A stretch of 64,000 bases of DNA from Hymenobacter radiodurans. GTDB taxonomy: Bacteria; Bacteroidota; Bacteroidia; Cytophagales; Hymenobacteraceae. The stretch spans positions 3,504,001 through 3,568,000 of the forward strand of contig NZ_CP037922.1 in assembly GCF_004355185.1 (NCBI RefSeq). Direction: 5' to 3'. Both the position numbers and the translations under genes were made by a program. Below the pieces are notes generated by a model, which saw only the letters and a list, made by a program, of their open reading frames with translations, had not been told where the DNA came from and searched no databases. Numbering within the stretch: position 1 is the first letter of the stretch; each line of letters begins with the position of its first letter. Shown one piece after another: positions 2,764 to 62,732 of this stretch.

Positions 2764-5082
2764 TTGCTGCTATTCCTTTCTTTGATTTCTGTCGCTGCTT
2801 CTCCTTGGTTAATTTTAGTGTGCCTGGCCGTGGGCGCGGGCTACTCGGCGCTGCTCTACTCGGCCAAAGCGCCGTGGAGCAAAGGCCTGAATTATGGGCT
2901 GGCCGCGTTGCGCTTCGTAGTCGTGAGCTTTCTGTGCTTTCTACTACTCTCGCCCTTCGTCAAAACGACTACCACCACGACCGAAGATCCCACCATCGTG
3001 CTGGCCGTTGACAACTCTCAATCGGTAGGGCTGTTTACCCCGCCGGCGGTGCTGCGCCAGGCTACTACTGGTTTGCAGCAGTTGGCTACTACCTTGCGAG
3101 GCAAGGGTTTTCGGGTTGAGACGCAGGTTTTGCCCCCCAGCCCGGCTCGTGCTGTCCGGCCCGACTCGGTGCAGTTTCAGGCTCCTAGCTCTGACCTGGA
3201 TGCCTTGCTTACGGATGTGCGTGAGGCTTACGATGGGCGTAATCTGGCGGGCGTGGTGCTTGTGTCGGATGGGCTGGTGAACCAGGGCCGCTCGCCGGTG
3301 TACTCCGAGTTTAACTTCCCAATTTATAGCGTGGCCGTGGGCGACACCGTGCCGAAGCGCGACCTGAGCGTGCCTACTCTAAACTACAACCGCGTCGCTT
3401 TTAGTGGCAACCGCTTTCCTATTGAGGCCGAAATTGCCTACGAAGGTTTCGGGGGCGGCACGGCTACGGTGCAGTTGCGCGAAAACGGCCGCGTGCTGCA
3501 AACCAAGCAAGTGAATTTGCCCCCCGGTCAGCGCCGCCAGAAAACCACCTTCTTGCTAACTGCTCCTGCTCCCGGCAAGCGTCGCTACGAAATAGCGATT
3601 CAGCCCCAAAATGGCGAATTCACGACTCTGAACAATACCAAAAACGCGTATATCGAAGTAGTAAAAGGCAAGCTGCGGGTGCTACTGGCCGGCGCTGCGC
3701 CCCACCCGGACATTAAAGCGCTCCGGGGGGCAATTCTGCAGAACGACAACTTCGACCTGACCATTTATCTGCCCGGCATTGCGCCCTTAAAAGCGCAGGA
3801 TTATGATGTAGCTATTCTGCACCAATTGCCTGCTCGCTTGGGCGCGGGGAATGAGGTGCTAGCCCAAGTGCGCAGCCGCCGCATCCCAACCTTATTTATC
3901 ATTGGGGCGCAGTCCGATTTGAACGCCTACAATAACCTTGGTGCCGGCCTTACCATCGCGCCTCGCGGCCAGCAGACGGATGAGGTAACCCCCGTGTTGA
4001 ACACCTCATTTTCGCGGTTTTCGTTCGAGGAAGATGCGCTGCAACGCTTCGCAGCGTATCCGCCGGCGCCGGTGCCGTTTGGCGAATACCGATTGGGCGG
4101 CGGGGCCGAGGTAGCTCTGTACCAGCAAGTAGGCCGATTGAAAACGCAGAAGCCATTGCTGGTGTTTGGCGGCACGCCCGAGCAGCGCCGTGCTACCTTG
4201 CTTACCGACGGCGGCTGGCAGTGGCGCCTCCAAGAAGCCGCCGACCACGCCGACCGCCCCGATGCCTACGACCGCCTCATCAGTCGCACCCTGCAGCTAC
4301 TGACTGCCAACGCCAACAAGAAGCGCCTCGACGTGTACCCCACCCAGGATGCCTTCACCACCGCCGACGAAATCACTTTCGGGGCGGAAACCTACAACGC
4401 TATTTTCGAACGCATTTATGGCCAAAAAATCGAGCTAACGCTGACCGACGAGCAGCAGCGGACTCGCAATTATTCTTTCACGAATAGCGAAGATAGCGCG
4501 CCGCTGCGGCTGGGCACCTTGCCCGGCGGAGTGTACCGCTATGTGGCCCGTGCCACGCTTGGGGGGCAAAATCAGCAGGATCGGGGCGAATTGCTGGTGC
4601 AGGAGCAACAGCTTGAAGCTCTCAACGCCCGCGCCGACCACAACTTACTCTACCAGCTCGCCCGCCGTAGCGGTTCGCGGCTCTATTATCCGCAGCAATT
4701 CGACCAGCTTACCCAAGACATTCAGAAAGCGAATTACAAGCCCGTGATTTACAGCCAGGAAAACATTAAGGATTTAATAAATCTGAAGTGGCTGTTTTTC
4801 CTGCTGCTAGCTTTGGTAACAGCAGAGTGGGCTGCGCGCAAGTACTCGGGAGCATTTAGGCAGACTATTTTTATTGCTCTACGAAGGCATACATTGGTGT
4901 TGAGTACCACTTTGGTCTCTCCTTCAGATCAAGTAGCAGCAAAGCCAATAGAGATATATGCCACACACAGAACCGTTGACGAAAAGGCTTACGTTGGCTA
5001 TCAGTTGGCTTTTCGCTATCGGCTTTGTAAGCGTTACGCTCTGGATTTTTTATGGCGAAGTAGCTATCTATATTCGTCATGA
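2764..5082 (+). CDS. Membrane protein with vWA-like domain; C-terminus probably read through
   Basis: Two N-terminal membrane helices (about residues 2-30 and 40-62) are followed by a von Willebrand A-like domain with the metal-binding DNSQS (DxSxS) near residue 82. A long extracytoplasmic region comes next, then a C-terminal helix (about 670-690) ending in AARKYSGAF. Related Bacteroidota proteins usually end right after that helix. Here 75 more residues follow, without recognisable similarity, and overlap the next gene by 125 bases. A TAG lies one frame off at 4857-4859: a single extra T in the TTT at 4855-4857 would end the protein at SGAF (about 698 residues). The start is TTG; no ATG precedes it in frame. 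The function is unknown. Confidence 0.75.
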   Translation: MLLFLSLISVAASPWLILVCLAVGAGYSALLYSAKAPWSKGLNYGLAALRFVVVSFLCFLLLSPFVKTTTTTTEDPTIVLAVDNSQSVGLFTPPAVLRQATTGLQQLATTLRGKGFRVETQVLPPSPARAVRPDSVQFQAPSSDLDALLTDVREAYDGRNLAGVVLVSDGLVNQGRSPVYSEFNFPIYSVAVGDTVPKRDLSVPTLNYNRVAFSGNRFPIEAEIAYEGFGGGTATVQLRENGRVLQTKQVNLPPGQRRQKTTFLLTAPAPGKRRYEIAIQPQNGEFTTLNNTKNAYIEVVKGKLRVLLAGAAPHPDIKALRGAILQNDNFDLTIYLPGIAPLKAQDYDVAILHQLPARLGAGNEVLAQVRSRRIPTLFIIGAQSDLNAYNNLGAGLTIAPRGQQTDEVTPVLNTSFSRFSFEEDALQRFAAYPPAPVPFGEYRLGGGAEVALYQQVGRLKTQKPLLVFGGTPEQRRATLLTDGGWQWRLQEAADHADRPDAYDRLISRTLQLLTANANKKRLDVYPTQDAFTTADEITFGAETYNAIFERIYGQKIELTLTDEQQRTRNYSFTNSEDSAPLRLGTLPGGVYRYVARATLGGQNQQDRGELLVQEQQLEALNARADHNLLYQLARRSGSRLYYPQQFDQLTQDIQKANYKPVIYSQENIKDLINLKWLFFLLLALVTAEWAARKYSGAFRQTIFIALRRHTLVLSTTLVSPSDQVAAKPIEIYATHRTVDEKAYVGYQLAFRYRLCKRYALDFLWRSSYLYSS

Positions 5083-5371
5083 CTATACCATTGCACACGT
5101 CTTGCAAGTCTATCGCAGCAGGAAGTCTGGGTGGAATGTAAGTTATTACTATACAGTTAAGGGAATACGCTATGAACGCGGGAGTGATTGGGATGGGAAG
5201 GTGTTACCAGGTGAGCGGTATGTAGTGAAGTATGCAACGTATGCTCCTCATGGCAACGATTTTATCTGCAAACATCGAGTACCAGATAGCATTCAGCAGG
5301 CTAGTGGTCCTCAATGGCAGGCATTTCTTGTAAAAAGTCAGCTCTATTATAGAATTCCTAGCCATACATGA
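4958..5371 (+). CDS. Small unknown membrane protein
   Basis: A 137-residue protein with one membrane helix near the N-terminus (about residues 12-32, LAISWLFAIGFVSVTLWIF). A soluble domain rich in Tyr, Lys and Arg follows, with the segment LPGERYVVKY. The DNA is clearly more AT-rich than the flanking genes, which may reflect acquisition. It starts inside the extended 3' end of the vWA gene; if that gene really ends near 4859, this one has its own leader of about 100 bases. I do not recognise a family with confidence, though a DUF3592-like fold is possible. Confidence 0.6.
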   Translation: MPHTEPLTKRLTLAISWLFAIGFVSVTLWIFYGEVAIYIRHDYTIAHVLQVYRSRKSGWNVSYYYTVKGIRYERGSDWDGKVLPGERYVVKYATYAPHGNDFICKHRVPDSIQQASGPQWQAFLVKSQLYYRIPSHT

Positions 5372-5395
5372 TAAAGAACACCCATAACTGTTTAC

Positions 5396-7746: not shown

Positions 7747-7802
7747 AAAAGCCCCCCAACGCCTGCTATTTCTACGTGTCTGAAGTAATATAATTAGCCC
7801 GA

Positions 7803-8132: not shown

Positions 8133-10108
<1,976 letters not shown>

Positions 10109-10119
10109 GTTGCTGCTTT

Positions 10120-10156
10120 AAAAAAGCCCCCAGCAATATGTTGGGGGGCTTTTTTT
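10120..10156 (+). terminator. Intrinsic terminator of dnaK
   Basis: A6-GCCCCC, an AT-rich loop, then GGGGGGC and a T run. The left arm has five Cs against six Gs on the right, so one base may be missing. Confidence 0.9.
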
Positions 10157-10295: not shown

Positions 10296-11441
10296 ATGAA
10301 ATTCATCATCGCTGGGGCAGGAATTGGGGGATTAGCTACGGCGTTGGCCTTGCGCCAGCAGAACCACGACGTACAGGTAGTGGAAGCTGCGACTGAGCTG
10401 CGCGAAATCGGGGCGGGCGTAGTGTTGGGCGCCAATGCCATGCAGGCGCTCGACCGTTTGGGCGTGCACGATGCCGTGCGTGCTGCGGGTTTCCCCATTA
10501 CTCGGATTAGCTTGCTGGATCGCCACGGCCGTATCCTCAATGACATTGATACCACGCCCTTCACCCGCCGCCTCGGCTATGAAAACCTAGCCATTCACCG
10601 CGCCGACTTACAACGGATTCTGCTGGCAAATTTGCCCCCCGACGTCGTACAGCTAGGCAAGTCGCTGGAACGGTTTGAGGAAAAAGACAACCACGTAACT
10701 GCCTATTTCACCGATGGTGAGCATCTGGAAGCGCAGGCGTTGATTGGCGCTGATGGTATTCGGTCGCGAGTGCGGCGGCAGCTACTGCCCTTTTCGCAGC
10801 CGCGCTACGCGGGCTACACCTGCTGGCGGGGCGTAATAGAAGCACAGTCGCTGAACTTGCCCGCAGGTCGCTCTACCGAAACCTGGGGCGGCAACGGACG
10901 CTTTGGCGTGGTGCCGTTAGGCAACGGACAGGTGTATTGGTTTGCCTGCATTAATAGCGCCCAAGCGCAAAATCCACAGTACCGCGCTTTCCAGTTAGCC
11001 GATTTGCAGCGGCATTTTGCCGACTACCACTCCCCTATTCCCGAGCTGCTGGCACTCACTACAAATGAGCAAGTTATCTGGGGCGATATTATTGATTTGA
11101 AGCCATTGGGGCGCTTTAACTTTGGCCGAGTGCTGCTCCTTGGCGATGCAGCCCACGCCACTACACCCAACATGGGGCAGGGCGCGGGCCAAGCCGTAGA
11201 GGATGCTGCCGTATTAGCGAGTTGTCTGGTGCAAGCCAACGGCATTGAGTCCGCCTTTCAGGCCTTTGATACCCAGCGTCGGCCGCGCACAACTCGCATT
11301 GTCAATCAATCGTGGCAGTTAGGTAAAGTGGCCCAGATGGAACAGCCGTGGCTGGTGGGCCTGCGCAATGCCGTAATGCGCCGCGTGCCCGCCACCGTAA
11401 ATAATCATCAGATGGCTTTCCTGTACGAAACGGATATCTAG
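10296..11441 (+). CDS. FAD-dependent monooxygenase (salicylate/urate hydroxylase-like)
   Basis: A 381-residue class A flavoprotein monooxygenase. It has an N-terminal FAD-binding GAGIGGLATALAL (residues 7-19), the acidic end of strand 2 (VVEAA), and LIGADGIRSRVRR (the conserved DG motif contacting FAD and NAD(P)H). GDAAHATTPNMGQGAGQAVEDA follows near residue 285 and closes the flavin site. Family members hydroxylate aromatic or heteroaromatic substrates such as salicylate or urate, or inactivate tetracyclines; the substrate here is not predictable. The gene stands alone between the family B repeat and a convergent nuclease-like gene whose 3' end it overlaps by four bases. Confidence 0.88.
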   Translation: MKFIIAGAGIGGLATALALRQQNHDVQVVEAATELREIGAGVVLGANAMQALDRLGVHDAVRAAGFPITRISLLDRHGRILNDIDTTPFTRRLGYENLAIHRADLQRILLANLPPDVVQLGKSLERFEEKDNHVTAYFTDGEHLEAQALIGADGIRSRVRRQLLPFSQPRYAGYTCWRGVIEAQSLNLPAGRSTETWGGNGRFGVVPLGNGQVYWFACINSAQAQNPQYRAFQLADLQRHFADYHSPIPELLALTTNEQVIWGDIIDLKPLGRFNFGRVLLLGDAAHATTPNMGQGAGQAVEDAAVLASCLVQANGIESAFQAFDTQRRPRTTRIVNQSWQLGKVAQMEQPWLVGLRNAVMRRVPATVNNHQMAFLYETDI

Positions 11442-12650: not shown

Positions 12651-12684
12651 AAAAATGCCCCCCAACTGCAGCCGGGGGCATTTT
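12651..12684 (-). terminator. Intrinsic terminator of purE
   Basis: Read on the minus strand: AAAATGCCCCC, a short loop, then GGGGGGCATTTTTT directly after the purE stop. The arms differ by one base (five versus six). Confidence 0.8.
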
Positions 12685-13398: not shown

Positions 13399-14016
13399 AT
13401 GGAAATTCTGCTTGCCACGTTCACTACGCTGTTTTCGGTCGTAAATCCGTTTGGAGCCATGCCCGTCTTTCTGACTTTAACAGAAGAAGACTCCCCCCAG
13501 GAACGGCGCCAAATTGGACTACGGGCCTGCCTTTACATGATAGCTGTGCTGACCGTGTCGTTTTTTGCGGGCCAGTATGTACTCAACTTTTTCGGCATCA
13601 ATATTCACCATTTGCGCATCGCGGGGGGCATTTTGCTGATGCGCTCGGCCTTTGATCTGCTCACGCCTGGCGGCAACCGCGACCGAGTGTCGCCGGCCGC
13701 GCTGGAGGAGAGTATGCACAAGAACGATATTTCCTTCACCCCGCTGGCTATGCCGATGCTTTCCGGCCCAGGCTCTATTGCGGTGTGTATCAGCTTGTTC
13801 ACGGAGCGCCTCAGCTACTTCGATATGGGCTTGATCTTCGTAGGCTTCGTGCTGGTGGCGCTGGCGGCTTATATTATTCTGATGTCGTCGCTGCGGCTCA
13901 CCCGATTCTTGGGACGGCCTGGCATGGCTGCTCTGGCGCGAATTATGGGCTTTATTACGCTTGCCATCGGGGTCAATTTTATGGCTACGGCTATTAAGGC
14001 GCTGTTTCAGGAGTAG
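13399..14016 (+). CDS. MarC-family (UPF0056) membrane protein
   Basis: A 205-residue integral membrane protein with about six hydrophobic helices. The N-terminus TTLFSVVNPFGAMPVFLTL and the internal repeat LAMPMLSGPGSIAV are the two hallmark NPxG / PxxxGPG motifs of the MarC family. Despite the name, members have no proven drug-efflux role; some are linked to amino acid export. The frame is open 300 bases further upstream, overlapping purE, but only the segment from 13399 is MarC-like and a promoter box precedes it. It sits directly before hemE on the same strand but has its own promoter. Confidence 0.9.
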   Translation: MEILLATFTTLFSVVNPFGAMPVFLTLTEEDSPQERRQIGLRACLYMIAVLTVSFFAGQYVLNFFGINIHHLRIAGGILLMRSAFDLLTPGGNRDRVSPAALEESMHKNDISFTPLAMPMLSGPGSIAVCISLFTERLSYFDMGLIFVGFVLVALAAYIILMSSLRLTRFLGRPGMAALARIMGFITLAIGVNFMATAIKALFQE

Positions 14017-14178: not shown

Positions 14179-15225
14179 GTGATTAAAAACGACCTCATAC
14201 TTCGGGCCGCCCGCGGCGAACAAACCGAGCGTACGCCCGTGTGGCTGATGCGCCAAGCTGGCCGTATTCTGCCTGAATATCGCGCCCTGCGTGCCCGCCT
14301 CAGCGGCTTTAAAGAACTGGTAGAAACGCCCGATCTAGCCGCTGAAGTCACGATTCAGCCCGTTGATGCGCTCGACGTCGACGCTGCCATCATCTTCTCC
14401 GACATTCTGGTGGTGCCCGATGCGATGGGCCTTACTTACGAGATGGTGGAAGCCCGCGGGCCGCTTTTCCCCGAAACCGTACGCTCCGCCGCCGACATTC
14501 AGAAGCTGCGCATCGCGGATCCGGAGGAGCATCTGGGTTATGTGCTGGAAGCTATTCGCGTTACCAAGCGCGCGCTGAATGGTCGGGTGCCGCTCATTGG
14601 TTTTGCCGGTGCTCCTTGGACTATTCTAGCGTATATGGTGGAGGGCCACGGCTCTAAAACGTTCTCTAAAGCGCGGCGCATGCTGTATGCCGAGCCGGCG
14701 TTAGCTCATCAGCTACTGGAGAAAATTACGGCTACCACTATCGCGTATTTGCAGGCGCAGGTGCAAGCGGGCGCTAATCTTATTCAGGTGTTCGACTCTT
14801 GGGCCGGGATTTTGCCCCCCAGTCATTACCGCGAGTTCAGCACCCGCTACATCGCCCAAATCTGTGAGGCGCTGCCCGATGTACCCGTGACGGTGTTTGC
14901 CAAAGGCGCTTTTTTCGCGCTGGAAGACTTCGCTCAGCTCGATTGTCAAACCATCGGCCTCGACTGGAACCAGGACCCCCGCGCCGCCCGCGCTATTATC
15001 GGCGACAACTATACGCTGCAAGGCAATCTCGACCCTTGTGCGCTCTACGGCTCCCCGGAGCAGGTGCAGGCCGCTACCATCGAGATGCTGCGCCAGTTTG
15101 GGCCTCAGCGCCACATCGCCAACCTCGGCCACGGCGTGTACCCCGATACTGATCCGGCGAATGTGCGCGTGTTTATCCAAACTGTGAAGGAGTTCAGCGC
15201 ATTGGCCCGCGAGGGAACCATATAG
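14179..15225 (+). CDS. hemE: Uroporphyrinogen decarboxylase
   Basis: A 348-residue enzyme that converts uroporphyrinogen III to coproporphyrinogen III in haem synthesis. Signatures: [17 protein letters not shown] near residue 18 (substrate-binding Arg residues), [14 protein letters not shown] (catalytic Asp), [16 protein letters not shown] (second family signature), FDSWAG, and a C-terminal [10 protein letters not shown] and [11 protein letters not shown]. Length is normal. The start is GTG; no ATG is available in frame before [12 protein letters not shown]. It ends at a bidirectional terminator shared with the convergent kinase gene. Confidence 0.96.
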
Positions 15226-15238: not shown

Positions 15239-15275
15239 AAAAAAGCCCCCCAGATCATAGTCTGGGGGCTTTTTT
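15239..15275. terminator. Bidirectional terminator between hemE and the heptose kinase
   Basis: A6-GCCCCCCAGA, loop, TCTGGGGGC-T6. It is a symmetric hairpin with A and T runs on both sides, placed between convergent genes. The arms are six Cs and five Gs. Confidence 0.9.
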
Positions 15276-15294: not shown

Positions 15295-16344
15295 TCAAAT
15301 TGAAACTGACCCTTCTGTTGGTACGATAACGCTTAGTAGGCCTGCTTCCTGAGCTTCTTCCAGCAATCGGTCTTTCTCAATTGGTACTACGCCAACCTGC
15401 TCGCAAACCAACCCGCCACCTAGGTTTGCCAGTGCGGCTAACACCGGCGCTTCCAGTCCTAAGGCCACGCATAAAGCAGCAATGCTGATAACGGTGTCGC
15501 CGGCCCCTGACACGTCGGAAATGGCGCGTAAGTGGGCAGGAATGTAGTTGCGACCCGTAGCCGGTGCGTCGCTGAATACACCGCGCTCAGAGAGCGTGAC
15601 CAGAATAATGGCGGGCGTGAGCAACTCACGCAGGCGCTGGACGGCAGCCTCAAACTGCGGACGGTCGGCGTCGGTATCGTTGAAGTCCAGCTTTAGGCCC
15701 TCGCGCAACTCTTTCAGGTTTGGCTTGAAGAGCGTGCAATAGCGATACGCCAGAAAGTTTTTGCGCTTCGGGTCAACGACGGTTGGGATGTTGCGCTGCC
15801 GGGCCTGCGCGATGAAATGCTGAATCAGACTCTCATTGAGCACGCCTTTGTCGTAATCTTCAAATACCACTACGTCGGCTTGGGGCAGCAGCGCCTCATA
15901 GCGTGCAATGAGGTCGGCGGCCTCGGTAGCGTTGAGGTCAGTTTCTACTTCTGAGTCGATGCGCAGCAGGTGCTGGCCGGCAGCCAGGATGCGCTGCTTG
16001 ACGGTGGTTGGCCGGTCGGCGCTGCGCACAATGCCTTTCGCCGACAAGTTTTTATCTTCCAACAAGCCTAGCAATTGGTCGCCGCCGGCATCCTCACCTA
16101 CCACCGCGCACAGCAAGGGCGTCGCGCCAAGGGCCTGCACATTCAGCGCCACATTGGCCGCGCCGCCGAGACGCTGCTCGGTGCGGCTCACGTGCACGAT
16201 AGGCACTGGCGCCTCGGGCGAAATGCGGCCAGCCTTGCCCCAAACGTAGGCATCCAGCATCACATCGCCCACAATGAGCACCGTGAGGCGGTTGAAGGCA
16301 GCAAATAATTCGGGCAGCGAAGTAGGCGGTACGGTGGGGGGCAT
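15295..16344 (-). CDS. rfaE1: D-glycero-beta-D-manno-heptose-7-phosphate kinase (HldE/RfaE kinase domain)
   Basis: A 349-residue PfkB-family sugar kinase. The N-terminal VGDVMLDAYVWGKAGRISPEAPVPIV and the GGAANVALNV motif are characteristic of the RfaE kinase domain, which phosphorylates heptose-7-phosphate at O-1 for ADP-heptose and lipopolysaccharide core synthesis. VVFEDYDKGV, VDPKRKN and VSGAGDTVIS (the PfkB anion hole and catalytic Asp) follow. There is no nucleotidyltransferase domain, so that partner must be elsewhere. ATG 16344 is chosen because a -7 box overlaps the first codon of the longer frame (start at 16374). Confidence 0.9.
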   Translation of the reverse strand: MPPTVPPTSLPELFAAFNRLTVLIVGDVMLDAYVWGKAGRISPEAPVPIVHVSRTEQRLGGAANVALNVQALGATPLLCAVVGEDAGGDQLLGLLEDKNLSAKGIVRSADRPTTVKQRILAAGQHLLRIDSEVETDLNATEAADLIARYEALLPQADVVVFEDYDKGVLNESLIQHFIAQARQRNIPTVVDPKRKNFLAYRYCTLFKPNLKELREGLKLDFNDTDADRPQFEAAVQRLRELLTPAIILVTLSERGVFSDAPATGRNYIPAHLRAISDVSGAGDTVISIAALCVALGLEAPVLAALANLGGGLVCEQVGVVPIEKDRLLEEAQEAGLLSVIVPTEGSVSI

Positions 16345-16582: not shown

Positions 16583-17803
16583 TTAGTGCAGCTTTTCCAG
16601 ACTTGCTTTAATGCGAATGAAGGCCTCGCGCAGCTTCTCATCGGCGGCGGCGGTACTGAAGCGCATGCAGCTAGGCGCTCCAAACGCCTCACCCGAAACG
16701 GCAGCTACATGTGCGTCATTCAGCAGAAACATCGCCAAATCGGTAGCGTTTTCGATTACGTCGCCTTGGGGGGCTTTTTTACCGAAATAGGCACTCACGT
16801 CCGGAAAAACGTAGAAAGCACCAGCCGGCGTTGGCGTCTGGAAGCCCGGAATTTCTTTGGCTAACTCCAACACCAAGTCGCGGCGGCGGTGGTAGGCGGT
16901 TACCATTTCATCGGCGGAACTACGGCCTCCTTCCAAGGCAGCCAGTGCGGCGCGTTGGGCAATGGAGCAGGTGCCCGAAGTAATCTGGCTCTGCATTTTC
17001 TCGCAAGCACTGGCAATTTCTTTACGCGCGGCCAGATAGCCCACGCGCCAACCCGTCATGGCGTAGCCTTTGGAAAAGCCGTTTACAGTAATTACCTGGT
17101 CTTTAATCTCATCAAATTCAGCCAAGCTCACATGCTCGCCCTCAAAGTTGATGTACTCATAAATCTCGTCGGCCATGGCAAACACCTGCGGATGACGCGC
17201 TAGTACGGCCGCAATGTCGGCTAGCTCTTCGCGCGAGAATACAGCACCCGTGGGGTTGCAGGGCGACGAATACATGATGAGTTTAGTACGGGGCGTAATG
17301 GCCTCCTCTATCTGCGCGGCCGTGGCTTTGTAGTCGTTTTCCAACGTGCCCATCACCCGCACTGATACACCTTCGGCTAGGCGCACCATTTCCTCGTAGC
17401 TTACCCAGTATGGAGCCAGCACAATTACTTCCTCGCCAGGATTTACCATGCTCATCACCGCATTAGCCAAGGCCTGCTTTGCGCCCGTACTCACTACGAT
17501 GTTCTCACACTGATACTCAAGGCGGTTTTCACGACGTAGCTTGTCGGCAATAGCTTGGCGTAGCTCTACGTAGCCGGGCACAGGCGTATACTTGGTATAT
17601 CCTTCGTCAAGCGCCCGCTTGGCGGCATCCTTGATGTACTGCGGCGTTTGAAAATCAGGCTCGCCAAAACTTAGGTTAATCACGTTGTGACCCTGAGCGG
17701 CGAGCTCACGCGATTTTTTGGCCATCGCAATGGTCTGCGACTCTTGTAGAGCGCTGATGCGATCAGAGAGAAACGTAGTAGCAAGCGTAGCGGAAGCTGA
17801 CAT
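16583..17803 (-). CDS. PLP-dependent class I aminotransferase (aspartate-type)
   Basis: A 406-residue fold-type I aminotransferase. Visible: INLSFGEPDFQTP, GYTKYTPVPGYVELRQAIA, the substrate-contacting Asn in SSPCNPTGAVFSREEL, DEIYEYI (Asp binding the pyridine N), VNGFSKGYAMTGWRVGY with the Schiff-base Lys, and the C-terminal MRFSTAAADEKLREA with the carboxylate-binding Arg. The subgroup matches bacterial aspartate/prephenate aminotransferases; the exact amino donor is not certain. It is preceded by its own -7 box and followed by about 240 bases without a gene. It may end in that spacer, though I see no clear terminator there. Confidence 0.92.
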   Translation of the reverse strand: MSASATLATTFLSDRISALQESQTIAMAKKSRELAAQGHNVINLSFGEPDFQTPQYIKDAAKRALDEGYTKYTPVPGYVELRQAIADKLRRENRLEYQCENIVVSTGAKQALANAVMSMVNPGEEVIVLAPYWVSYEEMVRLAEGVSVRVMGTLENDYKATAAQIEEAITPRTKLIMYSSPCNPTGAVFSREELADIAAVLARHPQVFAMADEIYEYINFEGEHVSLAEFDEIKDQVITVNGFSKGYAMTGWRVGYLAARKEIASACEKMQSQITSGTCSIAQRAALAALEGGRSSADEMVTAYHRRRDLVLELAKEIPGFQTPTPAGAFYVFPDVSAYFGKKAPQGDVIENATDLAMFLLNDAHVAAVSGEAFGAPSCMRFSTAAADEKLREAFIRIKASLEKLH

Positions 17804-17894: not shown

Positions 17895-19865
17895 CTATTC
17901 CTGCCCCAGCCACCGAAAGCGGCGCACCAAGATATTAAGGTCAGTAGAGGGCGTATAATCTTTAGCATAGAGCAGCTCCAAGCGGCGGCGAGTGGCCTCA
18001 GGCAGCGGCGCGGCGGCCGTATCGGCAGAGTCGGCAGGAGAAAATACGGCCGGTGTGGTGCGGCGCGAGGCATCGGCATGGCGCAGGCCCACCCAGGTGC
18101 GCGTACCCAACAGAACCCGTAGACAGTTGCGCAGATAGCCCGCTTTTTCGCGGGCGAACCATACCAGCAACGGCGCCGCCAACAGTAAGCTCAAGCTGGT
18201 AAGCACGTCCAGCAGGCGCTTGGTGCGGGCACGTTGGGGCTGAAATAGGTTCAGGGCAATATCAAGGGCGTAATACTCGCCCGGCGCATCTTTCGAGGAG
18301 CTACCAATGATGTATTCACTGTCTTCGGGCAAAATCTTGTAGGCCACCGGCGGGTATTGCGGTAGCCGGATCATCAAGGAAATAATGCGGGTAGCCGACA
18401 GATCTTTGCCGCAGAAGATCAGCTCATCCAAGTCGTGAATTCGGATAATTTCATCAAGCTGATGGAGTTGGCCCAGCAAATAGCGACTTGGCGGAGCAGT
18501 TGGGTCGGCCACAGGAGTCACGTGGCCCACAATGCGCGCCTGTACGCTGGCCGTTTCAAGCAAGTGGCGCACGCGCCGACTTTCCTCTGCCGAGCCCACA
18601 ATGGCGATTTTTTTCTGGTGGCTCTGCATCAGACGCAGGTTGCGATGCTGCACCACATGGCTCACTAGCCGCCGACCAATAAGGGCCATAATACTCCAAA
18701 CGCCCCCCAGCAGAATCAGCGCATTGGAATAGCGATAAGACTCCAGAAAGTTGGAGCCCGCCGAGATAAGCACCGTACCAATCACAATGCCCCGAATGAT
18801 GCGCCACGCACTGAAAGGCTTATCATAGCTACCACTGAGGTAAGCGCAACCCAGCCACACGAGCACGTAAGCCGGCACGACCACCTCCATCAGCGGGGAT
18901 GGATAATCAGTTGGCCCTTGCTTCTGATACTCCTCCCAGTAGTTTTTCAGAAGATACATGCCGCCGTACAACAGGCCAGCATCCAACAGAATAGGCGCTA
19001 TGCTCGTGAGTACGCGGCGCCCGACGGCCATGCCCGCGCGCAACCAGATGGCCAAATGAATGAGCAGGGAGAAAACGCCGGCCTGATTGGGAGCAAAATG
19101 CTTGCGGGCAAACACAATCATGGCCCGATAAAATACGAACACGTAGTTGACGCTCGTGCGCTTTGTACTTTCGCCTTTGTAGTGAATGATGCGCGTGCCG
19201 GGGAAATAGTAGTTTTTCCAGCCGCCCCGGGTGAGCCGATACGAGAGGTCAATATCCTCGCCGTACATGAAGTAATCCTCATCGAGCAGGCCAACGGCAT
19301 CAAGGGCACTTTTGCGCAGGAGCATAAAGGCACCGCTCAGCACATCTACCTCGTGAGTTTGGTCTTTGTCGAGGTAGCCGAGGTGGTAGCGGCCAAAGGT
19401 GCGCGAACCGGGAAATAGCGCCGCTAGCCCAAAAACCTTGTAGAAAGCTACCCGCGGCGTAGGCAAGCCGCGCTTGCTTTCGGGCAAAAACTTCCCTTGC
19501 CCATCCAGCATCTTCACGCCCAGTCCGCCGCCGTCGGGGTGTTCGTCCAGAAACTCGCAGCAGGCGCGGAAGGTGTCTTCTTCCACTACGGTGTCGGGGT
19601 TGAGCAGTAGAACGTACTCGCCTTGGGCTTGCCGTATTGCTTGGTTGTTGGCCTTCGCGAAGCCGGGATTATGCTTGTTCTCCAGCAAGATGACCTCCGG
19701 AAACCGCGCCCGCACCATTGCCACGGAGCCATCAACGGAGTTATTATCGACTACAAATACCTCGGCGGGCGCATCCAGTTTTTGCAAAGCCCGCCGCACC
19801 GACAACAGCGTCTGGCTCAGGAAATAGCTGACGTTGTAGTTGACAATGATAACGGAGAGCTTCAC
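17895..19865 (-). CDS. GT2 glycosyltransferase fused to a degenerate polyprenyl-phosphate sugar transferase
   Basis: Residues 1-260 form a GT-A glycosyltransferase of the rhamnosyltransferase type: VIIVNYNVSYFL, FVVDNNSVDGS, LLLNPDTVVE (DxD-like) and YGEDIDLSYRL. Four membrane helices follow (about 270-410). A Rossmann-like segment (KKIAIVGSAEESRRV onwards) comes next, as in the middle domain of WcaJ/WbaP initiating transferases. The end (KRLLDVLTSLSLLLAAPLL, then GTRTWVGLRHADASRR) matches the start and the GPRP region of a phosphoglycosyl transferase, but the catalytic stretch between them is missing. It probably acts at the inner membrane in surface polysaccharide synthesis. Only the GT2 part looks active. 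Confidence 0.82.
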   Translation of the reverse strand: MKLSVIIVNYNVSYFLSQTLLSVRRALQKLDAPAEVFVVDNNSVDGSVAMVRARFPEVILLENKHNPGFAKANNQAIRQAQGEYVLLLNPDTVVEEDTFRACCEFLDEHPDGGGLGVKMLDGQGKFLPESKRGLPTPRVAFYKVFGLAALFPGSRTFGRYHLGYLDKDQTHEVDVLSGAFMLLRKSALDAVGLLDEDYFMYGEDIDLSYRLTRGGWKNYYFPGTRIIHYKGESTKRTSVNYVFVFYRAMIVFARKHFAPNQAGVFSLLIHLAIWLRAGMAVGRRVLTSIAPILLDAGLLYGGMYLLKNYWEEYQKQGPTDYPSPLMEVVVPAYVLVWLGCAYLSGSYDKPFSAWRIIRGIVIGTVLISAGSNFLESYRYSNALILLGGVWSIMALIGRRLVSHVVQHRNLRLMQSHQKKIAIVGSAEESRRVRHLLETASVQARIVGHVTPVADPTAPPSRYLLGQLHQLDEIIRIHDLDELIFCGKDLSATRIISLMIRLPQYPPVAYKILPEDSEYIIGSSSKDAPGEYYALDIALNLFQPQRARTKRLLDVLTSLSLLLAAPLLVWFAREKAGYLRNCLRVLLGTRTWVGLRHADASRRTTPAVFSPADSADTAAAPLPEATRRRLELLYAKDYTPSTDLNILVRRFRWLGQE

Positions 19866-20054: not shown

Positions 20055-20663
20055 CTAACGAGCCTGGCGCTGCCGCTCTACAATGCTGCGGCCCAAGGTT
20101 ATTTCGTCGGCGTACTCCAATTCGCCCCCCACCGGGATGCCACGGGCAATGGTGCTGATGTGCACGTCGGGGAACTCACGGAGCTTACGGGTGAGGTAAA
20201 AAGCGGTGGTATCGCCCTCCATGGTGGGGCTGATGGCAAGAATAACTTCTTTGATTTCCGACTCCGGAATGCGCTTCAATAGCGAGTCAATCTGTAAATC
20301 GGAAGGGCCGATGCCTTCAATAGGGGAAATAACGCCCCCCAGCACGTGGTACACGCCTTGATATTGGCTGGTATTCTCAATGGCAATTACATCCCGAATG
20401 TCGGACACGACGCACACCATAGCGTGGTCGCGCAGCTTGTTAGCGCAAATGCTGCACTCCTCCGTATCGGCAATATTGTGGCAGGTGTGGCAATAGGTTA
20501 TCTCAAAGCGCATTTTTGCCAGCGCCTCAGCCAGCGAAGCCGTGCTGTCGCTCTCCGCCTTCAGCAAGTGCAGAGCCAAGCGCAGAGCCGTTTTGCGGCC
20601 AATGCCGGGCAGCTTAGAAAGCTCCGCTACGGCGTTTTCTATCAGTTTGGAAGGAAACTCCAT
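20055..20663 (-). CDS. recR: Recombination mediator protein RecR
   Basis: A 202-residue RecR that works with RecF/RecO to load RecA on gapped DNA. It has the N-terminal helix-hairpin-helix [20 protein letters not shown], the zinc-binding C4 motif (Cys58, Cys61, Cys70, Cys73), a Toprim domain starting at [15 protein letters not shown], and the C-terminal [20 protein letters not shown]. Length and order are standard. clpS lies 85 bases upstream on the same strand, but a box of its own is not obvious. Confidence 0.95.
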
Positions 20664-21748: not shown

Positions 21749-21782
21749 AAAAGCCCCCAGACTAGGTCTGGGGGGCTTTTTT
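21747..21782. terminator. Bidirectional terminator with embedded stop codon
   Basis: A6-GCCCCCAGAC, loop, GTCTGGGGGGC-T6 between convergent genes. The A-tract overlaps the TAA of the upstream gene. Arms are five Cs and six Gs. Confidence 0.92.
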
Positions 21783-24182: not shown

Positions 24183-25025
24183 ATGGTAAAACCATTCTGC
24201 CAATTTTACCGCCCCTGTGCTGCGCTTCAACCCTTCGTCAGCAACTACATGCTCATGCATGTTCAGTTGAATCCGTGTGCGCCTAGGGTGGTAAATCCTT
24301 ATCCTACCAACCCAGAGCAATGCTTATTTTTCTACGCTCGCGACCCCATTGAAATATTTAACTATCGTAAAGGCCAAGAAATTACCAGCCCCTATAGCGT
24401 GATAGTTGGCCCCCAAGTAGCGCGGGTAAACCTGCGGATGGGCTATAATCAGCTCACAATAAAGGTGGGTTTTCAGCCTGGGGGGCTTTTTCGGCTGTTT
24501 CGCACTCCCATGTGGCAGTTGCTTGATCAGACGGTGGATAGCTATGATTTGGTAGGGCGCGAAATCAACCAAGTGAATGAGCGACTGCAAGCGCTAAACG
24601 ACTACGCGCAGATGATTGCCTTGGTAGAAACCTACCTGCTGAGCAAAGTAGCCGCGCTCAAAACCGACGCGCACGCAGTAGATAAACTAGCGCAACTCAT
24701 GCTGCAGAGCCATTCACGGCAGTTCTCCCTAGACTGGTTAGCTGATCAAGCCTGCCTGAGTTCACGCCAGTTTGAGCGAAAATTTTTAGAACGTATTGGC
24801 ATGAGTCCAAAGCTATTTATGCGCATCGTTCGTTTTGCGCAGGCTTACCGCTTAAAGGACCGGCAGCCGGAGCTTGATTGGCAAGATATTGTACAGCAGT
24901 GTGGCTACTACGACCAGATGCACTTGATAAAGGATTTCAAGCTGTTTGCCGCCGTCACGCCTACTATTCTCCTAAAAGAAGAAGCTGCTTCTCCCCTGCG
25001 GCTCTTTGCGGGCAGCCCGTTTTAA
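24183..25025 (+). CDS. AraC-family transcriptional regulator
   Basis: A 280-residue regulator. The N-terminal half is an unclassified sensor domain; the C-terminal 100 residues are an AraC DNA-binding domain with two helix-turn-helix units (FSLDWLADQACLSSRQFERKFLERIGMSPKLFMRIVRFAQA, then DIVQQCGYYDQMHLIKDFKLFAAVTP). The layout suits the DUF6597-type AraC regulators of Bacteroidota. A GTG nine bases upstream could also start translation; ATG 24183 is preferred. It could control the adjacent NTF2-like gene. Confidence 0.88.
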   Translation: MVKPFCQFYRPCAALQPFVSNYMLMHVQLNPCAPRVVNPYPTNPEQCLFFYARDPIEIFNYRKGQEITSPYSVIVGPQVARVNLRMGYNQLTIKVGFQPGGLFRLFRTPMWQLLDQTVDSYDLVGREINQVNERLQALNDYAQMIALVETYLLSKVAALKTDAHAVDKLAQLMLQSHSRQFSLDWLADQACLSSRQFERKFLERIGMSPKLFMRIVRFAQAYRLKDRQPELDWQDIVQQCGYYDQMHLIKDFKLFAAVTPTILLKEEAASPLRLFAGSPF

Positions 25026-25707: not shown

Positions 25708-26739
25708 CTACTTCTCAAGATCAGGGACAGCGGTTTGAGCCCGAAGCAGGCCGTTCGTTTCCTGCACCAGCCCAAATGGCTCGTCGCGGATGATGATGAA
25801 CCCATCTAGGTCGCATACTTGGGCTTGGCTGCTTATCTGCATTGCCCCCCAGATGCCCAGCGTCGTTTCCACCATGCAGCCAATCATCGTATCAAGGCCG
25901 TGGGCGCGGGTTTGCTGGAGTAGGCGCAACCCGTTGCGGTAGCCACCGGCTTTCATTAGCTTCATATTCACACCGTGAAACTGCTGGGCGATGTCGGCAA
26001 AATCGGCGTCGTTGGTTACCGACTCATCGGCGAAAACCGGATACGGTGAGCGGCTGCGTAGGTAGCGGTAGTGGTCGGTGCAGGCAGCAGGCAAGGGCTG
26101 CTCCAGCAACCGAACCGCAAGGCCGGGCAGGGGGGCAATTTTTTCCAGAAACTGCAACAGCGCATCGGCGTCAGTCCAGGCTTCGTTGCCATCAATAATC
26201 AGTTGGCGACCTGGGAGCGCGCGTGTTACCTCGCGTAGAAGGTCGTAGCCGCTGGCTTGATCAACCTTTATTTTAAGAATCGAAAAACGCCCCATATCCT
26301 GCTCCTGGATGAAGCTTGCCACATCGCCGGGGGGCATAATGGGGAGCGTAAGCGCAGTAGGAACGGACGCCGCCGGTTCGGGCAAGCCCAGCACCGCCGC
26401 CACCGATTGCCCCGTATGCGCGGCCTGCCAGTGCACGTAGGCCGATTCCAAGGCGAAGCTCAGGGCGTGCGCTACGGAGTGATGTACCAAGAACTCCGTG
26501 AGTTCATCCAATGAGGTTACGCGGCTCAGTCCATCAGCAGCCAAGCGCTCAAACTCAGCTTGCAGTCCCTCCGGCGACTCACCGTAGCGCACATTGGGTG
26601 CGGCCTCGCCCCAGCCTACAGCACCGCCAGCTTCTTGCTGCACCCGTACCAATAGGTTGGTTTTGGCAGTAGAAGCGTTGCGCGATATTTTCCAGGTGTA
26701 GCGTAGCGGCAACTCACGCGTTTCGATGGTCCAGAGCAT
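25708..26739 (-). CDS. Dipeptide epimerase (enolase superfamily)
   Basis: A 343-residue member of the muconate-lactonising/AE-epimerase group. The barrel keeps the catalytic set: KIKVD (Lys-x-Lys), IIDGNEAW (first metal Asp), LLEQPLP (Glu), VFADESVT (Asp-Glu) and the opposite Lys in MKLMKAGG. Such enzymes epimerise L-Ala-D/L-Glu and similar dipeptides, usually for recycling of murein peptides. Substrate range is inferred. ATG 26739 (MLWTIETRELPLRY) fits the family's beginning; the frame extends 16 codons further but without similarity. Confidence 0.87.
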   Translation of the reverse strand: MLWTIETRELPLRYTWKISRNASTAKTNLLVRVQQEAGGAVGWGEAAPNVRYGESPEGLQAEFERLAADGLSRVTSLDELTEFLVHHSVAHALSFALESAYVHWQAAHTGQSVAAVLGLPEPAASVPTALTLPIMPPGDVASFIQEQDMGRFSILKIKVDQASGYDLLREVTRALPGRQLIIDGNEAWTDADALLQFLEKIAPLPGLAVRLLEQPLPAACTDHYRYLRSRSPYPVFADESVTNDADFADIAQQFHGVNMKLMKAGGYRNGLRLLQQTRAHGLDTMIGCMVETTLGIWGAMQISSQAQVCDLDGFIIIRDEPFGLVQETNGLLRAQTAVPDLEK

Positions 26740-26898
26740 GAAATAGAGTATTGAGGCTGGCCGCCAGCATATCACGACCGAGCGCAAAGCTACTTTTATA
26801 CGGCACTAAAATCAGCGCTGCAGCGCACTATAAAAAGCCCCCCGCCACGATTAAATAGCTGCACACTATGCAAACCCTCTAACTGTTGACTGAAAACT

Positions 26899-26940: not shown

Positions 26941-28356
26941 ATGAAGTTTTCGCGCATCGTTCCGCTCATTCTGATTCTGTCCTTGGTGGCCATTGTGCTC
27001 ACCGTGCTGTCAGCTTATAATATAGTGGCGCTGCCGCTCGCTGTGCCCCGCATAGCCCGCTGGCTAGCCCTGGCCGCAATGGTAGTATATGCCTATCAGC
27101 GCCGCTCCCTTACTTTCTGGATAGTCGTCAGCATGTTCGTGGGGGCCGAAATTGGTAATGACTATCCGGTTTTTGCCCAAAACCTGAAGGTGCTCAGCGA
27201 CGTGTTTCTGCGCTTAGTAAAAACCATTATTGCTCCTCTGGTTTTTGCCACGCTGGTGGTAGGCATCGCTGGCCACGCCGATTTGAAGCAGGTAGGCAAA
27301 ATGGGTATTAAAGCGCTAGTGTACTTTGAGGTTGTTACTACGTTTGCTCTCTTCATCGGCTTGGCAGCCATTAACTTGAGCAAAGCCGGCGTCGGCATCA
27401 GCCAAGCCGGAGCTGATACAAGTGAGAAACTGCAAACCGTAGAACAATCTACTTCCGATATTATTCTACACATCTTCCCCGAAAATATTGCCAAGTCGGT
27501 AGCGGAAGGGCAAGTTTTACAGGTAGTTGTGTTTGCTATCATCTTCGCAATTGGCTTGGCCATGGTGCACGGCAAGCACCGCCGGCCGATGCTGGAGGTG
27601 ATGGAAAGCCTGTCGGAGGTTATGTTCAAATTCACCAATGTGGTGATGTTTTTTGCCCCCCTGGGCGTCGGTGGTGCCCTGGCTTATACTGTGGGTAAAA
27701 TGGGTTTTGCGCCGCTGTTCAACGCTTTTCAGCTTCTGCTTACCCTGTATGTGGCGCTCATTGCCTTTTTGCTGATTGTACTGCTTCCTATTGCCTTTTT
27801 CGCCCGTATTCCGATTAAGCGCTTTATCCAAGCCATTGCAGAGCCAGTAAGTATTGCCTTTGCCACTACCAGTTCGGAGGCCGCATTACCGCGGGCCATG
27901 GAAGCAATGGAAAGCATCGGGGTGCCGCGTCGCATCGTGGCCTTCGTCATGCCGACTGGCTATTCCTTTAATCTTGATGGCACCACGCTTTACCTTTCGC
28001 TCGCAGCCGTATTTGTGGCACAAGCGGCGGGCGTAGAACTAAGCTTCGGTCAGCAATTGGTCATGGTATTTACGCTGATGCTTACCAGCAAAGGCGTAGC
28101 TGGCGTGCCCCGCGCTTCTCTCGTTATTCTGCTGGCGACGGTAGCTTCTTTTAACCTCCCCTCGTGGCCAGTCTTTATCATTCTGGGCATCGATGCGCTC
28201 ATGGATATGGCCCGTACTGCCGTGAACGTAATCGGTAACTGCCTAGCAACAGCCGTAGTAGCTCGTTGGGAAGGTGAGTTTGTAGACAACTATGTAGCCC
28301 CGCCCGTCGATGAACTCGCCGAAGCAGACAGTGCCCTAGCGCAGCACACTCACTAA
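26941..28356 (+). CDS. Dicarboxylate/amino acid:cation symporter (DAACS)
   Basis: A 471-residue inner-membrane carrier of the GltP/DctA family, which takes up glutamate, aspartate or C4-dicarboxylates with sodium or protons. Visible motifs: LVKTIIAPLVFATLVVGIAG, the serine-rich loop FATTSSEAALPRAMEAME (re-entrant hairpin 1), PTGYSFNLDGTTLYLS (the NLDGT substrate/ion motif), GVAGVPRASLVIL (hairpin 2) and DMARTAVNVIGNCLAT (the DRxRT-like ligand-binding helix). Two extra N-terminal helices precede the core. A perfect -7 box lies upstream and a symmetric terminator downstream. Confidence 0.93.
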   Translation: MKFSRIVPLILILSLVAIVLTVLSAYNIVALPLAVPRIARWLALAAMVVYAYQRRSLTFWIVVSMFVGAEIGNDYPVFAQNLKVLSDVFLRLVKTIIAPLVFATLVVGIAGHADLKQVGKMGIKALVYFEVVTTFALFIGLAAINLSKAGVGISQAGADTSEKLQTVEQSTSDIILHIFPENIAKSVAEGQVLQVVVFAIIFAIGLAMVHGKHRRPMLEVMESLSEVMFKFTNVVMFFAPLGVGGALAYTVGKMGFAPLFNAFQLLLTLYVALIAFLLIVLLPIAFFARIPIKRFIQAIAEPVSIAFATTSSEAALPRAMEAMESIGVPRRIVAFVMPTGYSFNLDGTTLYLSLAAVFVAQAAGVELSFGQQLVMVFTLMLTSKGVAGVPRASLVILLATVASFNLPSWPVFIILGIDALMDMARTAVNVIGNCLATAVVARWEGEFVDNYVAPPVDELAEADSALAQHTH

Positions 28357-29319: not shown

Positions 29320-29534
29320 TGAAACTCCCTGAAGCGGCTGATGCCTCAAACAATGGCGGATACTCCCCTTTGTCCAGACAAGCCAGGCTACATTATAACC
29401 GGTAGCGTCGCGCCCAAAGTCCACAATGAGCCAAGTTAAGAGCCTCTGAAGAAGTTAGCAGACTTTCTCACAGCGATGTTCGTTAAGCGATTGCGCTGGG
29501 GGGCTTTTCTCCTACTATCCTCGGCGCAGCTACT

Positions 29535-35231: not shown

Positions 35232-35388
35232 TGCTTCTTTGCTAAAAAAACTGCTGGCCTTTTGGTCTAAAAAGCTCGTTTGGGCAGAGTTTGCGCATTG
35301 GGGGGCTTTTTAGAATATATATTCCGCTAAAGGGTCTGAAAATTCACCCATTTTTACCTTTCCAACCTTCCTATTCACACCTGTTCCT

Positions 35389-61154: not shown

Positions 61155-61191
61155 AAAAAAGCCCCCCAGAATACTTCTGGGGGGCTTTTTT
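61155..61191. terminator. Bidirectional terminator
   Basis: A6-GCCCCCCAGA, ATACT loop, TCTGGGGGGC-T6 between convergent genes. Full six/six stem. Confidence 0.94.
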
Positions 61192-61831: not shown

Positions 61832-61861
61832 GAGCGAGGGGGACAGCTAAAATGTGAGGCG

Positions 61862-61869: not shown

Positions 61870-61934
61870 GCGCATCCACACCGAAGCCCACCTACTATCT
61901 CCCACGAACCGCCTCAACTCGCTCAAATAGCGGC

Positions 61935-62594
61935 TCAGCGGTTATCGATGACTTCTTTTACGTCGCGGGCCTTTTCCAGCGTCCGAAATTCGGCCTGCCA
62001 CGACCGCACGCGCAGGCGCTCTTCCGTGGGCAGTTGGGTCCGCACTTCCTCGTAGCGCGCATTGAGGCGGGCCAGCACCGCGGAGGCCTCGCTCCATTCG
62101 GCGGCCGTCCAGCGGCGGCGCTGGTCGCGGGTATTTTCCAGCAGACGAGCATACAAATCAGGCAATTCAGTAGCGCGGGCCCGGTTGATATCTACTTTTT
62201 CGCCCAGCAGTCGGCTTTGCGTATCTGCTACGGTAGCGGGCTCGTTGGCGGCGCTATCGAGGCGTTGCTGCTCGGCGGCCCACACTTTGTAGCGGGCTTT
62301 TTGGGTAGCATACTCGCGGCGCGACTGTACCGACAGGCTATCGGTGGCCCGGTCGAGGCGAGCGCTTTGACGGTCATAGTCGGCCATTACGCTGGGCCAC
62401 TCGCGGCGGGCACCATCTTCCGCCTTGGTAACTTTCTCACTTACCCAATCGCTGAAGCGGCGCAGGTCGCGCTCCACGGCAGAAACTGGTTTGGTAGAAG
62501 TAGAAGACTGTTGCGTCTGTTGGGCGGTGGCCGCCAACGGAGCGAGTACTAAGCTAGCGGCTCCGAAGACCGTTGAAAGCAAAATATTTTTCAT
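61935..62594 (-). CDS. Exported helical protein of unknown function
   Basis: A 219-residue protein with a signal peptide (MKNILLSTVFGAASLVLAPLAATAQQ). An almost wholly helical, Arg/Glu/Ala-rich chain follows, with coiled-coil character (AVERDLRRFSDWVSEKVTKAEDGARREWPSVMADYDRQSARLDRATDSL; AAEWSEASAVLARLNARYEEVRTQL). It resembles the periplasmic DUF6565-like helical proteins of Hymenobacteraceae, but I am not certain of that. ATG 62594 is chosen because the 26 codons upstream do not fit a signal peptide and contain the unpaired motif GCCCCCC at 62624. Confidence 0.68.
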   Translation of the reverse strand: MKNILLSTVFGAASLVLAPLAATAQQTQQSSTSTKPVSAVERDLRRFSDWVSEKVTKAEDGARREWPSVMADYDRQSARLDRATDSLSVQSRREYATQKARYKVWAAEQQRLDSAANEPATVADTQSRLLGEKVDINRARATELPDLYARLLENTRDQRRRWTAAEWSEASAVLARLNARYEEVRTQLPTEERLRVRSWQAEFRTLEKARDVKEVIDNR

Positions 62595-62732
62595 GGTGAT
62601 TAGGGAAAGAGTAGCGTGAAAACGCCCCCCAGGGGGCAATTTATTGCTGGCACAATACAATTTCCGTCCCAAAATGCCCCCCAGACCGAAGAATGCACGT
62701 TTGTTATCTTAAAATTTGCGTTTTTGCAGCCT

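Follow-up and report, generated by a model that had tools for sequence, protein, structure and literature searches.

Known DNA uptake sequences (DUS) and uptake signal sequences (USS) belong to systems that use type IV pili, and pilin receptors have been named for them. In the open-access literature searched, and within the portions of the reports cited here, accounts of such sequences are confined to two families, the Neisseriaceae and the Pasteurellaceae, which makes their origin and change hard to study. In the Neisseriaceae, DUS are over-represented in the core genome, highly conserved and absent from recently acquired genes, form inverted pairs that act as terminators, and are spaced about 1.1-1.5 kb apart (PMC2397512); they occur in dialects that have CTG in common, with 943-5,918 DUS per genome (PMC3630211). 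The USS of the Pasteurellaceae are evenly spaced, with a printed consensus of two tracts (PMC1939737). Two further systems are relevant: HIP1 and the other highly iterated palindromes (HIPs) of cyanobacteria (PMC4390886), in some of which lineages switch words together with a methyltransferase, and the non-canonical natural transformation of Riemerella anatipestifer, which requires ComEC and in which an essential transformation protein, located at the surface, carries the DUF5689 domain (PMC8459023). The present analysis concerns an asymmetric word with the core GCCCCCC, iterated along a 64,000-nt stretch of the Hymenobacter radiodurans genome (G000:C2:3504001-3568000, hereafter the window) and across the chromosome, C2, to which the window belongs.

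It is suggested here, with slightly less than even confidence, that this word serves as a lineage-specific signal of self-recognition, in the manner of DUS and USS. It is described as working like an uptake sequence, and not as a proven member of the family, because proof of uptake, a receptor and the usual pilus are missing. The distributional hallmarks of DUS and USS that were tested, namely core-genome bias, conservation, even spacing, inverted pairs and dialects, are present, and explanations that rest on polarity or on composition fail; the main rivals are a methylation-linked word of the HIP type and an array of sites for a chromosome-binding protein. Set against Neisseriaceae DUS as described in the portions cited, the likeness is distributional and known here from sequence alone: besides core-genome bias, conservation, inverted pairs and dialects, it covers the order of copy number and a spacing of ~1-1.5 kb, and the CTG common to the Neisseriaceae dialects has its counterpart in CCTA, shared by five Hymenobacter words. 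Unlike the Neisseriaceae, Hymenobacter belongs to the Bacteroidota, gave no type IV pilus ATPase match above cut-off in the genomes searched, and has dialects that diverge far more, some of them being palindromic. With Pasteurellaceae USS, within the same limits, the word shares a short core joined to an A/T-rich tract, even spacing and a frequency of roughly one copy every one to two kb; the cores are unrelated, USS have two tracts where the Hymenobacter motif has one, and pilus genes were not found in Hymenobacter.

A first-pass annotation of the window had counted about 40 copies of the core outside recognisable terminators, and the excess proves real and stronger than it had judged. The window contains 28 GCCCCCC and 24 GGGGGGC, 52 cores in all against 13.7 expected under a third-order Markov model (Poisson P = 2.4e-15); 10 of the 52 have an opposed GGGGGC/GCCCCC arm within ~45 bp, leaving 42, and each of the 25 positions offered as examples (14 forward, 11 reverse) is exact. 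Whole-genome counts, which the annotation had proposed as a check, agree: WGCCCCCCD occurs 3,251 times (1,642 + 1,609) in the 4.92-Mb genome, against 317 (162 + 155) for the reversed control word. A short word is thus hugely over-represented on both strands, at about one per kb, as is the case for DUS and USS. The cores of the window are listed below with their strand; where applicable, their fate in the aligned stretches L021, L022 and L050 is given.

1378..1384, minus, motif core
3132..3138, plus, motif core
3519..3525, plus, motif core
3725..3731, minus, motif core
4561..4567, minus, motif core
7751..7757, plus, motif core
10143..10149, minus, motif core, arm of a terminator-like hairpin
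10634..10640, plus, motif core
12657..12663, plus, motif core, hairpin arm
13623..13629, minus, motif core
14814..14820, plus, motif core
15245..15251, plus, motif core, hairpin arm
16336..16342, minus, motif core
16768..16774, minus, motif core
18702..18708, plus, motif core, C instead of A/T ahead of G
20124..20130, plus, motif core, C instead of A/T ahead of G
20334..20340, plus, motif core, C instead of A/T ahead of G
21770..21776, minus, motif core, hairpin arm
24480..24486, minus, motif core
25844..25850, plus, motif core
26130..26136, minus, motif core
26329..26335, minus, motif core
26837..26843, plus, motif core
27655..27661, plus, motif core
29498..29504, minus, motif core
30913..30919, plus, motif core
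33435..33441, minus, motif core
34697..34703, plus, motif core
34901..34907, plus, motif core
35038..35044, plus, motif core
35300..35306, minus, motif core
35908..35914, plus, motif core
36691..36697, plus, motif core, kept in L021, not in L022, unaligned in L050
38985..38991, plus, motif core, kept in L050, L021 and L022
39186..39192, plus, motif core, convergent with 39203, kept in L050, L021 and L022
39203..39209, minus, motif core, partner of 39186, kept in L050 and L021, not in L022
39837..39843, minus, motif core, kept in L050, L021 and L022
39985..39991, minus, motif core, kept in L021 but neither in L050 nor in L022
45056..45062, minus, motif core, kept in L021 but neither in L050 nor in L022
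46108..46114, plus, motif core, kept in L050, L021 and L022
49636..49642, minus, motif core, hairpin arm, kept in L050, not in L022, unaligned in L021
50666..50672, plus, motif core, kept in L050, L021 and L022
50784..50790, minus, motif core, kept in L050 and L021, not in L022
51528..51534, minus, motif core, kept in L050, L021 and L022
52493..52499, minus, motif core, kept in L050, L021 and L022
52807..52813, plus, motif core, kept in L021 but neither in L050 nor in L022
53976..53982, plus, motif core, kept in L050 and L021, not in L022
57759..57765, minus, motif core, not kept in L021 or L022, unaligned in L050
61161..61167, plus, motif core, convergent with 61179
61179..61185, minus, motif core, partner of 61161
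62624..62630, plus, motif core, C ahead of G, opposed arm nearby
62676..62682, plus, motif core

The motif is longer than its core and sharply defined. The A/T bases that the annotation had placed on the G side of the core stand (three of them in 48 of the 52 window copies), whereas the AG it had placed after the core is a preference and no fixed part of the motif, A following in 39/52 copies and AG in 23/52. All but two of the 54 exact C6/G6 runs of the window are motif cores, and runs of C7 or longer do not occur in the window and only five times in the chromosome sample, 464 kb of C2 composed of the window and 20 stretches of 20 kb at even intervals (three further stretches bring the larger sample to 524 kb). 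The profile of 352 aligned sites from the 464 kb is A-rich at -6 to -4 and A/T at -3 to -1, followed by G and a run of exactly six C; the next base is A (77%) or G (18%) and the one after it G in 50%, giving a full motif of ~15 bp, about 5'-AAAWWT-GCCCCCC-AG, in which an A-then-T tract precedes an exact core. Among the 297 genic sites of the 524 kb, the flank runs from A's into T's and lacks any TpA step in 193 of 263 cases, against 83 expected from other A/T runs ahead of G; A-then-T tracts lacking TpA are a feature of rigid or bent A-tracts. The form WWW-GCCCCCC-A is present in 279 copies against 2.3 expected, and all 21 single-substitution cores pooled amount to 127 copies against 50.7, 13 of the 21 lying within threefold of expectation and the remaining eight having 6-15 copies each; this dominance of the exact word over its one-mismatch forms is also seen for DUS and USS. 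A phage origin of the motif was considered and is without support, since the 15-mer AAATTTGCCCCCCAG, one exact motif form, was present once each in 12 viral-contig stretches and never repeated within one.

The placement of the copies bears on whether any signal beyond ordinary composition is needed. In the 464 kb, 260 sites fall within predicted genes (0.66/kb; 117 sense, 143 antisense) and 89 within spacers (1.27/kb), the latter including nine convergent pairs. Codon or dipeptide usage combined with terminator arms could provide an explanation for the facts that genic sites, found in all reading frames, are dominated by two of the three and that some terminator-like hairpins have the word as an arm. 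This possibility is barely tenable, as synonymous-codon shuffling of 390 predicted genes leaves a mean of 36.9 sites (standard deviation 5.5, maximum 52, 200 shuffles) against 240 observed, a 6.5-fold excess; codon usage is therefore rejected as the source, and the motif is constrained at the DNA level. The spectrum of exact and one-off words and the counts in congeners given below, which already contradict a purely compositional origin, argue in the same direction. Nor does the annotation's view of the string as the arm of most intrinsic terminators hold: CCCCC/GGGGG arms occur at five places among the terminator-like patterns (38, 32, 27) of window positions 1-60000, the part scanned, many of those patterns being expected by chance from shuffles, and an opposed arm near each copy, as expected of a terminator arm, is absent from most of the 52 cores. 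Since 260 of 349 sites are genic and are kept above background in relatives, the relic of a mobile terminator arm that it had listed as a possible origin is unsupported as the main source. The nine convergent pairs and the 10 window cores with an opposed arm are inverted pairs of the DUS/USS type, predicted to act as terminators.

The replication-linked or Chi-like polarity also listed there is not found. With axes tried in 100-kb steps over the 524 kb, the origin not having been located, the best axis leaves 54% of the sites one-sided (P 0.55), which leads to the rejection of replication polarity and shows neither the replication-oriented bias of Chi nor the strong replichore polarity of FtsK-orienting polar sequences (KOPS). 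The first stretch of the chromosome (L001, G000:C2:1-20000), with 2 forward and 14 reverse motifs, is the most one-sided of the 20; polarity at the scale of the genome is absent. A Chi-like recombination hotspot, or another self-marker read by a helicase-nuclease, would be in keeping with thousands of copies, with their greater density in shared DNA, with the mosaic between carriers and with lineage-specific words (all described below). Chi is usually biased to the leading strand, and the lack of such polarity and of a strong genic strand preference, an information content spanning ~15 bp including the A-tract, and the palindromic words of other lineages make this quite unlikely. Spacing, in turn, is more even than Poisson: in 52 bins of 10 kb the mean is 6.98 with a variance/mean ratio of 0.60 and no empty bin (lower-tail P 0.010), and motifs lie 1,350 bp apart on average.

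Beyond what the annotation had noted, the word is limited to a small part of the genus. WGCCCCCCD is frequent in four of 120 Hymenobacter genomes, that of the window (3,251 copies) and those of H. qilianensis, H. roseosalivarius DSM 11622 and Hymenobacter sp. BT188, the other counts being 2,709, 3,440 and 3,788; the remaining 116 have 85-477, so that each carrier lies more than fivefold above every non-carrier. In a tree of one ABC (ATP-binding cassette) transporter protein with 39 rows, the four form one clade with support 100/100. Orthologue comparison, the annotation's second proposed check, gives high conservation within this clade and background levels in a close low-copy relative. The core is unchanged at 60/77 orthologous sites in BT188 (78%; 0.45 for G/C-only 7-mers; odds ratio 4.3, P 9e-9), at 63/76 in H. 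roseosalivarius (83%; 0.42; odds ratio 6.8, P 5e-13) and at 48/83 in H. qilianensis (0.42; odds ratio 1.9, P 0.006), with further controls (all 7-mers, C5 cores, 6C+1G permutations) at 0.32-0.51; conservation thus exceeds that of the surroundings, as it does for DUS and USS. The H. qilianensis value is a lower bound, since 23 of its 83 aligned sites (L161-L166) differ by indels, 21 of them with one gapped core base, mostly a shortened C/G run; these gaps most likely reflect homopolymer miscalls in the assembly, with the motif undercounted there. In sp. BT730, a close relative with 163 copies genome-wide, 2 of 15 aligned sites match against 0.16 for control 7-mers (23 kb aligned), and the genic count of 4 in three 20-kb samples equals the synonymous-shuffle mean of 4.0. 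Among the functions proposed in the annotation, a DNA-level signal is accordingly upheld by shuffling and conservation, and an uptake-like role fits best.

Relatedness among the carriers is itself a mosaic. Along ~128 kb divided into 4-kb bins, quartet topology groups the window with H. roseosalivarius against BT188 with H. qilianensis in 17 of 27 bins, and the window with BT188 in 10; the latter grouping is strongest in two blocks of the joined alignment, ~20-28 kb and 100-112 kb, in which window/BT188 identity is 93-97% (e.g. 128 vs 14 sites), and elsewhere window/BT188 identity in two-kb bins ranges from 75 to 94%. The simplest reading of these alignments would be homologous recombination among carrier species, by whichever route.

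A bias of the motif toward the core genome, with rarity in recently acquired DNA, is apparent as for DUS and USS. Density rises with the number of the three relatives that align (0, 1, 2, 3), from 0.20 through 0.36 and 0.46 to 0.78 sites/kb; these values rest on 1, 3, 8 and 73 sites in 4.9, 8.2, 17.3 and 93.6 kb, the first three being small samples, and the gradient is given without a significance test. The second replicon, C1 (190065 bp), has 14 WWW-motifs against 342 in 524 kb of C2 (P 8e-30). Its GC content is 0.60, that of the window 0.54; judging from GC and size only, C1 may be a more recently acquired plasmid. Creation of the word by mutation or biased repair peculiar to the lineage would agree with its abundance in one clade only and with the observation that lost sites are often one substitution away (14/17 in BT188, 8/13 in H. 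roseosalivarius). Such an origin is very unlikely, given the sharp ~15-bp target, the near absence of C7-or-longer runs, and the sparse occurrence on C1 and in unshared DNA. More weight can be given to a site for a chromosome-organising or nucleoid-associated protein that bends A-tract/G-tract junctions, with selection for an evenly spaced array: the A-then-T tracts, the even spacing, the higher density in shared DNA and the scarcity on C1 would all be expected. A housekeeping site should, however, persist throughout the genus, and 116 of 120 genomes show no enrichment; the close relative BT730 stands at its shuffle expectation, and the different words of congeners would require repeated rapid re-targeting, which leaves this explanation improbable.

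Other lineages of the genus have other words, as shown by a k-mer scan of 20-kb loci around the transporter followed by larger samples (~4 kb of H. wooponensis and ~9 kb of BT730 were counted twice in these k-mer samples; conservation and shuffle analyses are free of overlap). They include AACCTAGG in H. cavernae (51 vs 3.0 expected), CCCTAGGG in H. polaris (47 vs 1.2), CCCTACCC in H. profundi (35 vs 4.2) and H. citatus (28 vs 4.9), CTAGGCCA in H. wooponensis (47 vs 4.3) and GGGGCCCC in H. nivis (45 vs 8.8), with weaker CCTAGG forms in H. crusticola and iterated CTACCCCC, ACCTAGGG and ACCTAGCT in further congeners. Each of the six words tested other than that of the window is more frequent than after synonymous shuffling, with excesses between 4.0- and 22-fold (76/3.4, 77/4.3, 63/7.5, 31/6.5, 171/43.2 and 112/23.5). 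Only three words were counted genome-wide in larger sets of genomes, the window's word and ACCTAGGT in 120 genomes each and CCCTACCC in 10: ACCTAGGT reaches 3,262, 1,867 and 1,815 copies, then 492 and 450, the remaining 115 genomes having 0-60, and CCCTACCC reaches 2,643 in H. profundi and 2,751 in H. citatus, with 91-347 in the eight others. The words CCCTAGGG, GGGGCCCC, TAGGCC and CCTACCCC, as well as AACGSTA of Adhaeribacter terrigena (25.6 kb sampled), rest on samples of 20-66 kb. CCTA is common to ACCTAGGT, CCCTAGGG, CCCTACCC, CCTACCCC and WGGCCTAS, and absent from the window's word and GGGGCCCC; the three CCTAGG rows of the transporter tree do not form one clade. Lineage dialects, as known for DUS, are thus found in Hymenobacter, and the Adhaeribacter word hints that the phenomenon reaches beyond the genus. 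In the small sample of that species (L057), the iterated form is AAACGSTA, with A's ahead and T-rich positions after. Two loci (L268 and L287, from G014 and G034) have iterated CCTACCCC(C), whose form lies between CCCTACCC and the GCCCCCC word.

In the 20-kb survey, 18 of 20 and 38 of 40 loci were usable (four were too short), and about 14 of the 56 samples were judged by the author to have a dialect-like top word; the surveyed genomes may overlap with those named above, and the other 64 of the 120, including the four carriers, lay outside the sample. A high word score is no proof of a dialect, as simulated second-order sequences reach 10.1 and triplet words like CAGCAGCA reach 33.8. Such triplet words were set aside as coding bias, and a few others (L234, L278) as possible local repeats.

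Word switching between related genomes, together with abundance of the same class, evokes the HIP1 of cyanobacteria, in which, as far as the cited portion goes, relatives likewise have wholly different words; several Hymenobacter words are, moreover, palindromic like HIPs (PMC4390886). On this account the word would be tied to a DNA methyltransferase or other marking enzyme, would be kept for replication, repair or recombination, and would switch with the methyltransferase. The window's word, unlike HIP1, is not a palindrome: it is asymmetric, with a 6-bp A/T tract unlike the usual methylase site. Nor does the distribution of the two methyltransferase families tested, over 16 genomes (15 Hymenobacter, one Adhaeribacter), follow that of the words. 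The C5 methylase family PF00145 is present in 5/16 genomes and in none of the four carriers, and the N6/N4 family PF01555 in 7/16, two carriers among them; both are absent from the window genome, BT188, H. citatus and H. crusticola, and H. profundi and H. citatus share a word and differ in PF00145. Methylation by enzymes of these two families is thereby ruled out for the window genome and BT188, the test covering PF00145 and PF01555 only. As a whole, a HIP-like word seems an unlikely explanation.

Should the word instead work as an uptake sequence, the machinery would have to be unusual. ComEC (PF03772), the channel of DUS and USS systems, is present in 16/16 genomes; the ATPase family of T2SSE, PilB, PilT and GspE (PF00437) gave no match above cut-off in any of the 16 and two weak ones, and was matched in 14/14 control genomes, 13 of them over cut-off, which is why canonical type IV pili or pseudopili appear to be absent and why a non-canonical uptake machine, perhaps of the Riemerella type, would be needed. 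Within the cited portion of its description, Riemerella anatipestifer resembles these genomes in being a member of the Bacteroidota with ComEC; it differs in its DUF5689 domain (PF18942), found above cut-off in 5/16 genomes and in none of the four carriers.

We infer that the motif is read by a DNA-binding protein and serves in uptake, and that it is maintained by drive and not by selection at individual sites. A putative surface or periplasmic protein of the competence machinery would prefer motif-bearing DNA; such DNA would pass through the ComEC channel and be recombined into the chromosome. As every transfer would give motif-bearing alleles a slight advantage, molecular drive would build up copies wherever the core genome tolerates them. 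These copies would then be kept, and changes of the receptor could found new dialects, giving the different words of other Hymenobacter lineages. Extended to the genus, with more doubt than for the window's word itself, this might amount to pilus-free, sequence-selective uptake with a fast-evolving receptor, each lineage founding a dialect of thousands of copies and limiting exchange to its own speakers; the words behind this suggestion are AAAWWTGCCCCCCAG, AACCTAGGTT, CCCTAGGG, CCCTACCC, CCTACCCCC, WGGCCTAS and GGGGCCCC, with CCTA in five of the seven.

Several points weigh against uptake. The receptor is without a candidate, and we know of no competence in Hymenobacter. ComEC does not discriminate, being present also in genomes where no iterated word was found, and PF00437 and DUF5689 matches above cut-off are both missing from the four carriers. 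Some dialects are palindromic, unlike the DUS and USS consensus sequences in the portions cited; C1, when the tract requirement is dropped, has 36 WGCCCCCCD against 10 reversed, and is thus low and not empty; the mosaic can come from other transfer routes; and both density bias and conservation would also be expected if the motif did another chromosomal job.

Among the top matches for broad queries of the open-access literature, no paper on such words in Hymenobacter, or on uptake words in Bacteroidota, was found. No uptake-sequence system is known to us outside the Neisseriaceae and Pasteurellaceae; if the proposal is correct, this would be the first beyond those two families, with congeners caught at different stages of gain and loss. 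One genus offers several dialects, four carriers against 116 congeners, intermediates (the genomes with 450 and 492 ACCTAGGT) and signs of exchange among carriers, and the question of molecular drive versus selection for uptake words becomes directly testable in Hymenobacter. Should the function be another, a genome-wide word repeatedly replaced within a genus would be equally unexplained.

Two further features of the window were observed. An HSP70 (DnaK-like) gene is split between overlapping frames at 8163-8531 and 8513-10108, corresponding to profile positions 1-112 and 116-598, with the break near a short C run, a possible homopolymer miscall or frameshift. An interspersed repeat resembling a miniature inverted-repeat transposable element (MITE), with paired inverted ends GTCATGCAGAG...CGAAGCATCTCGC, is found at 208-297, 2448-2543 and 7818-7894, and words similar to it rank high in the H. 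polaris sample.

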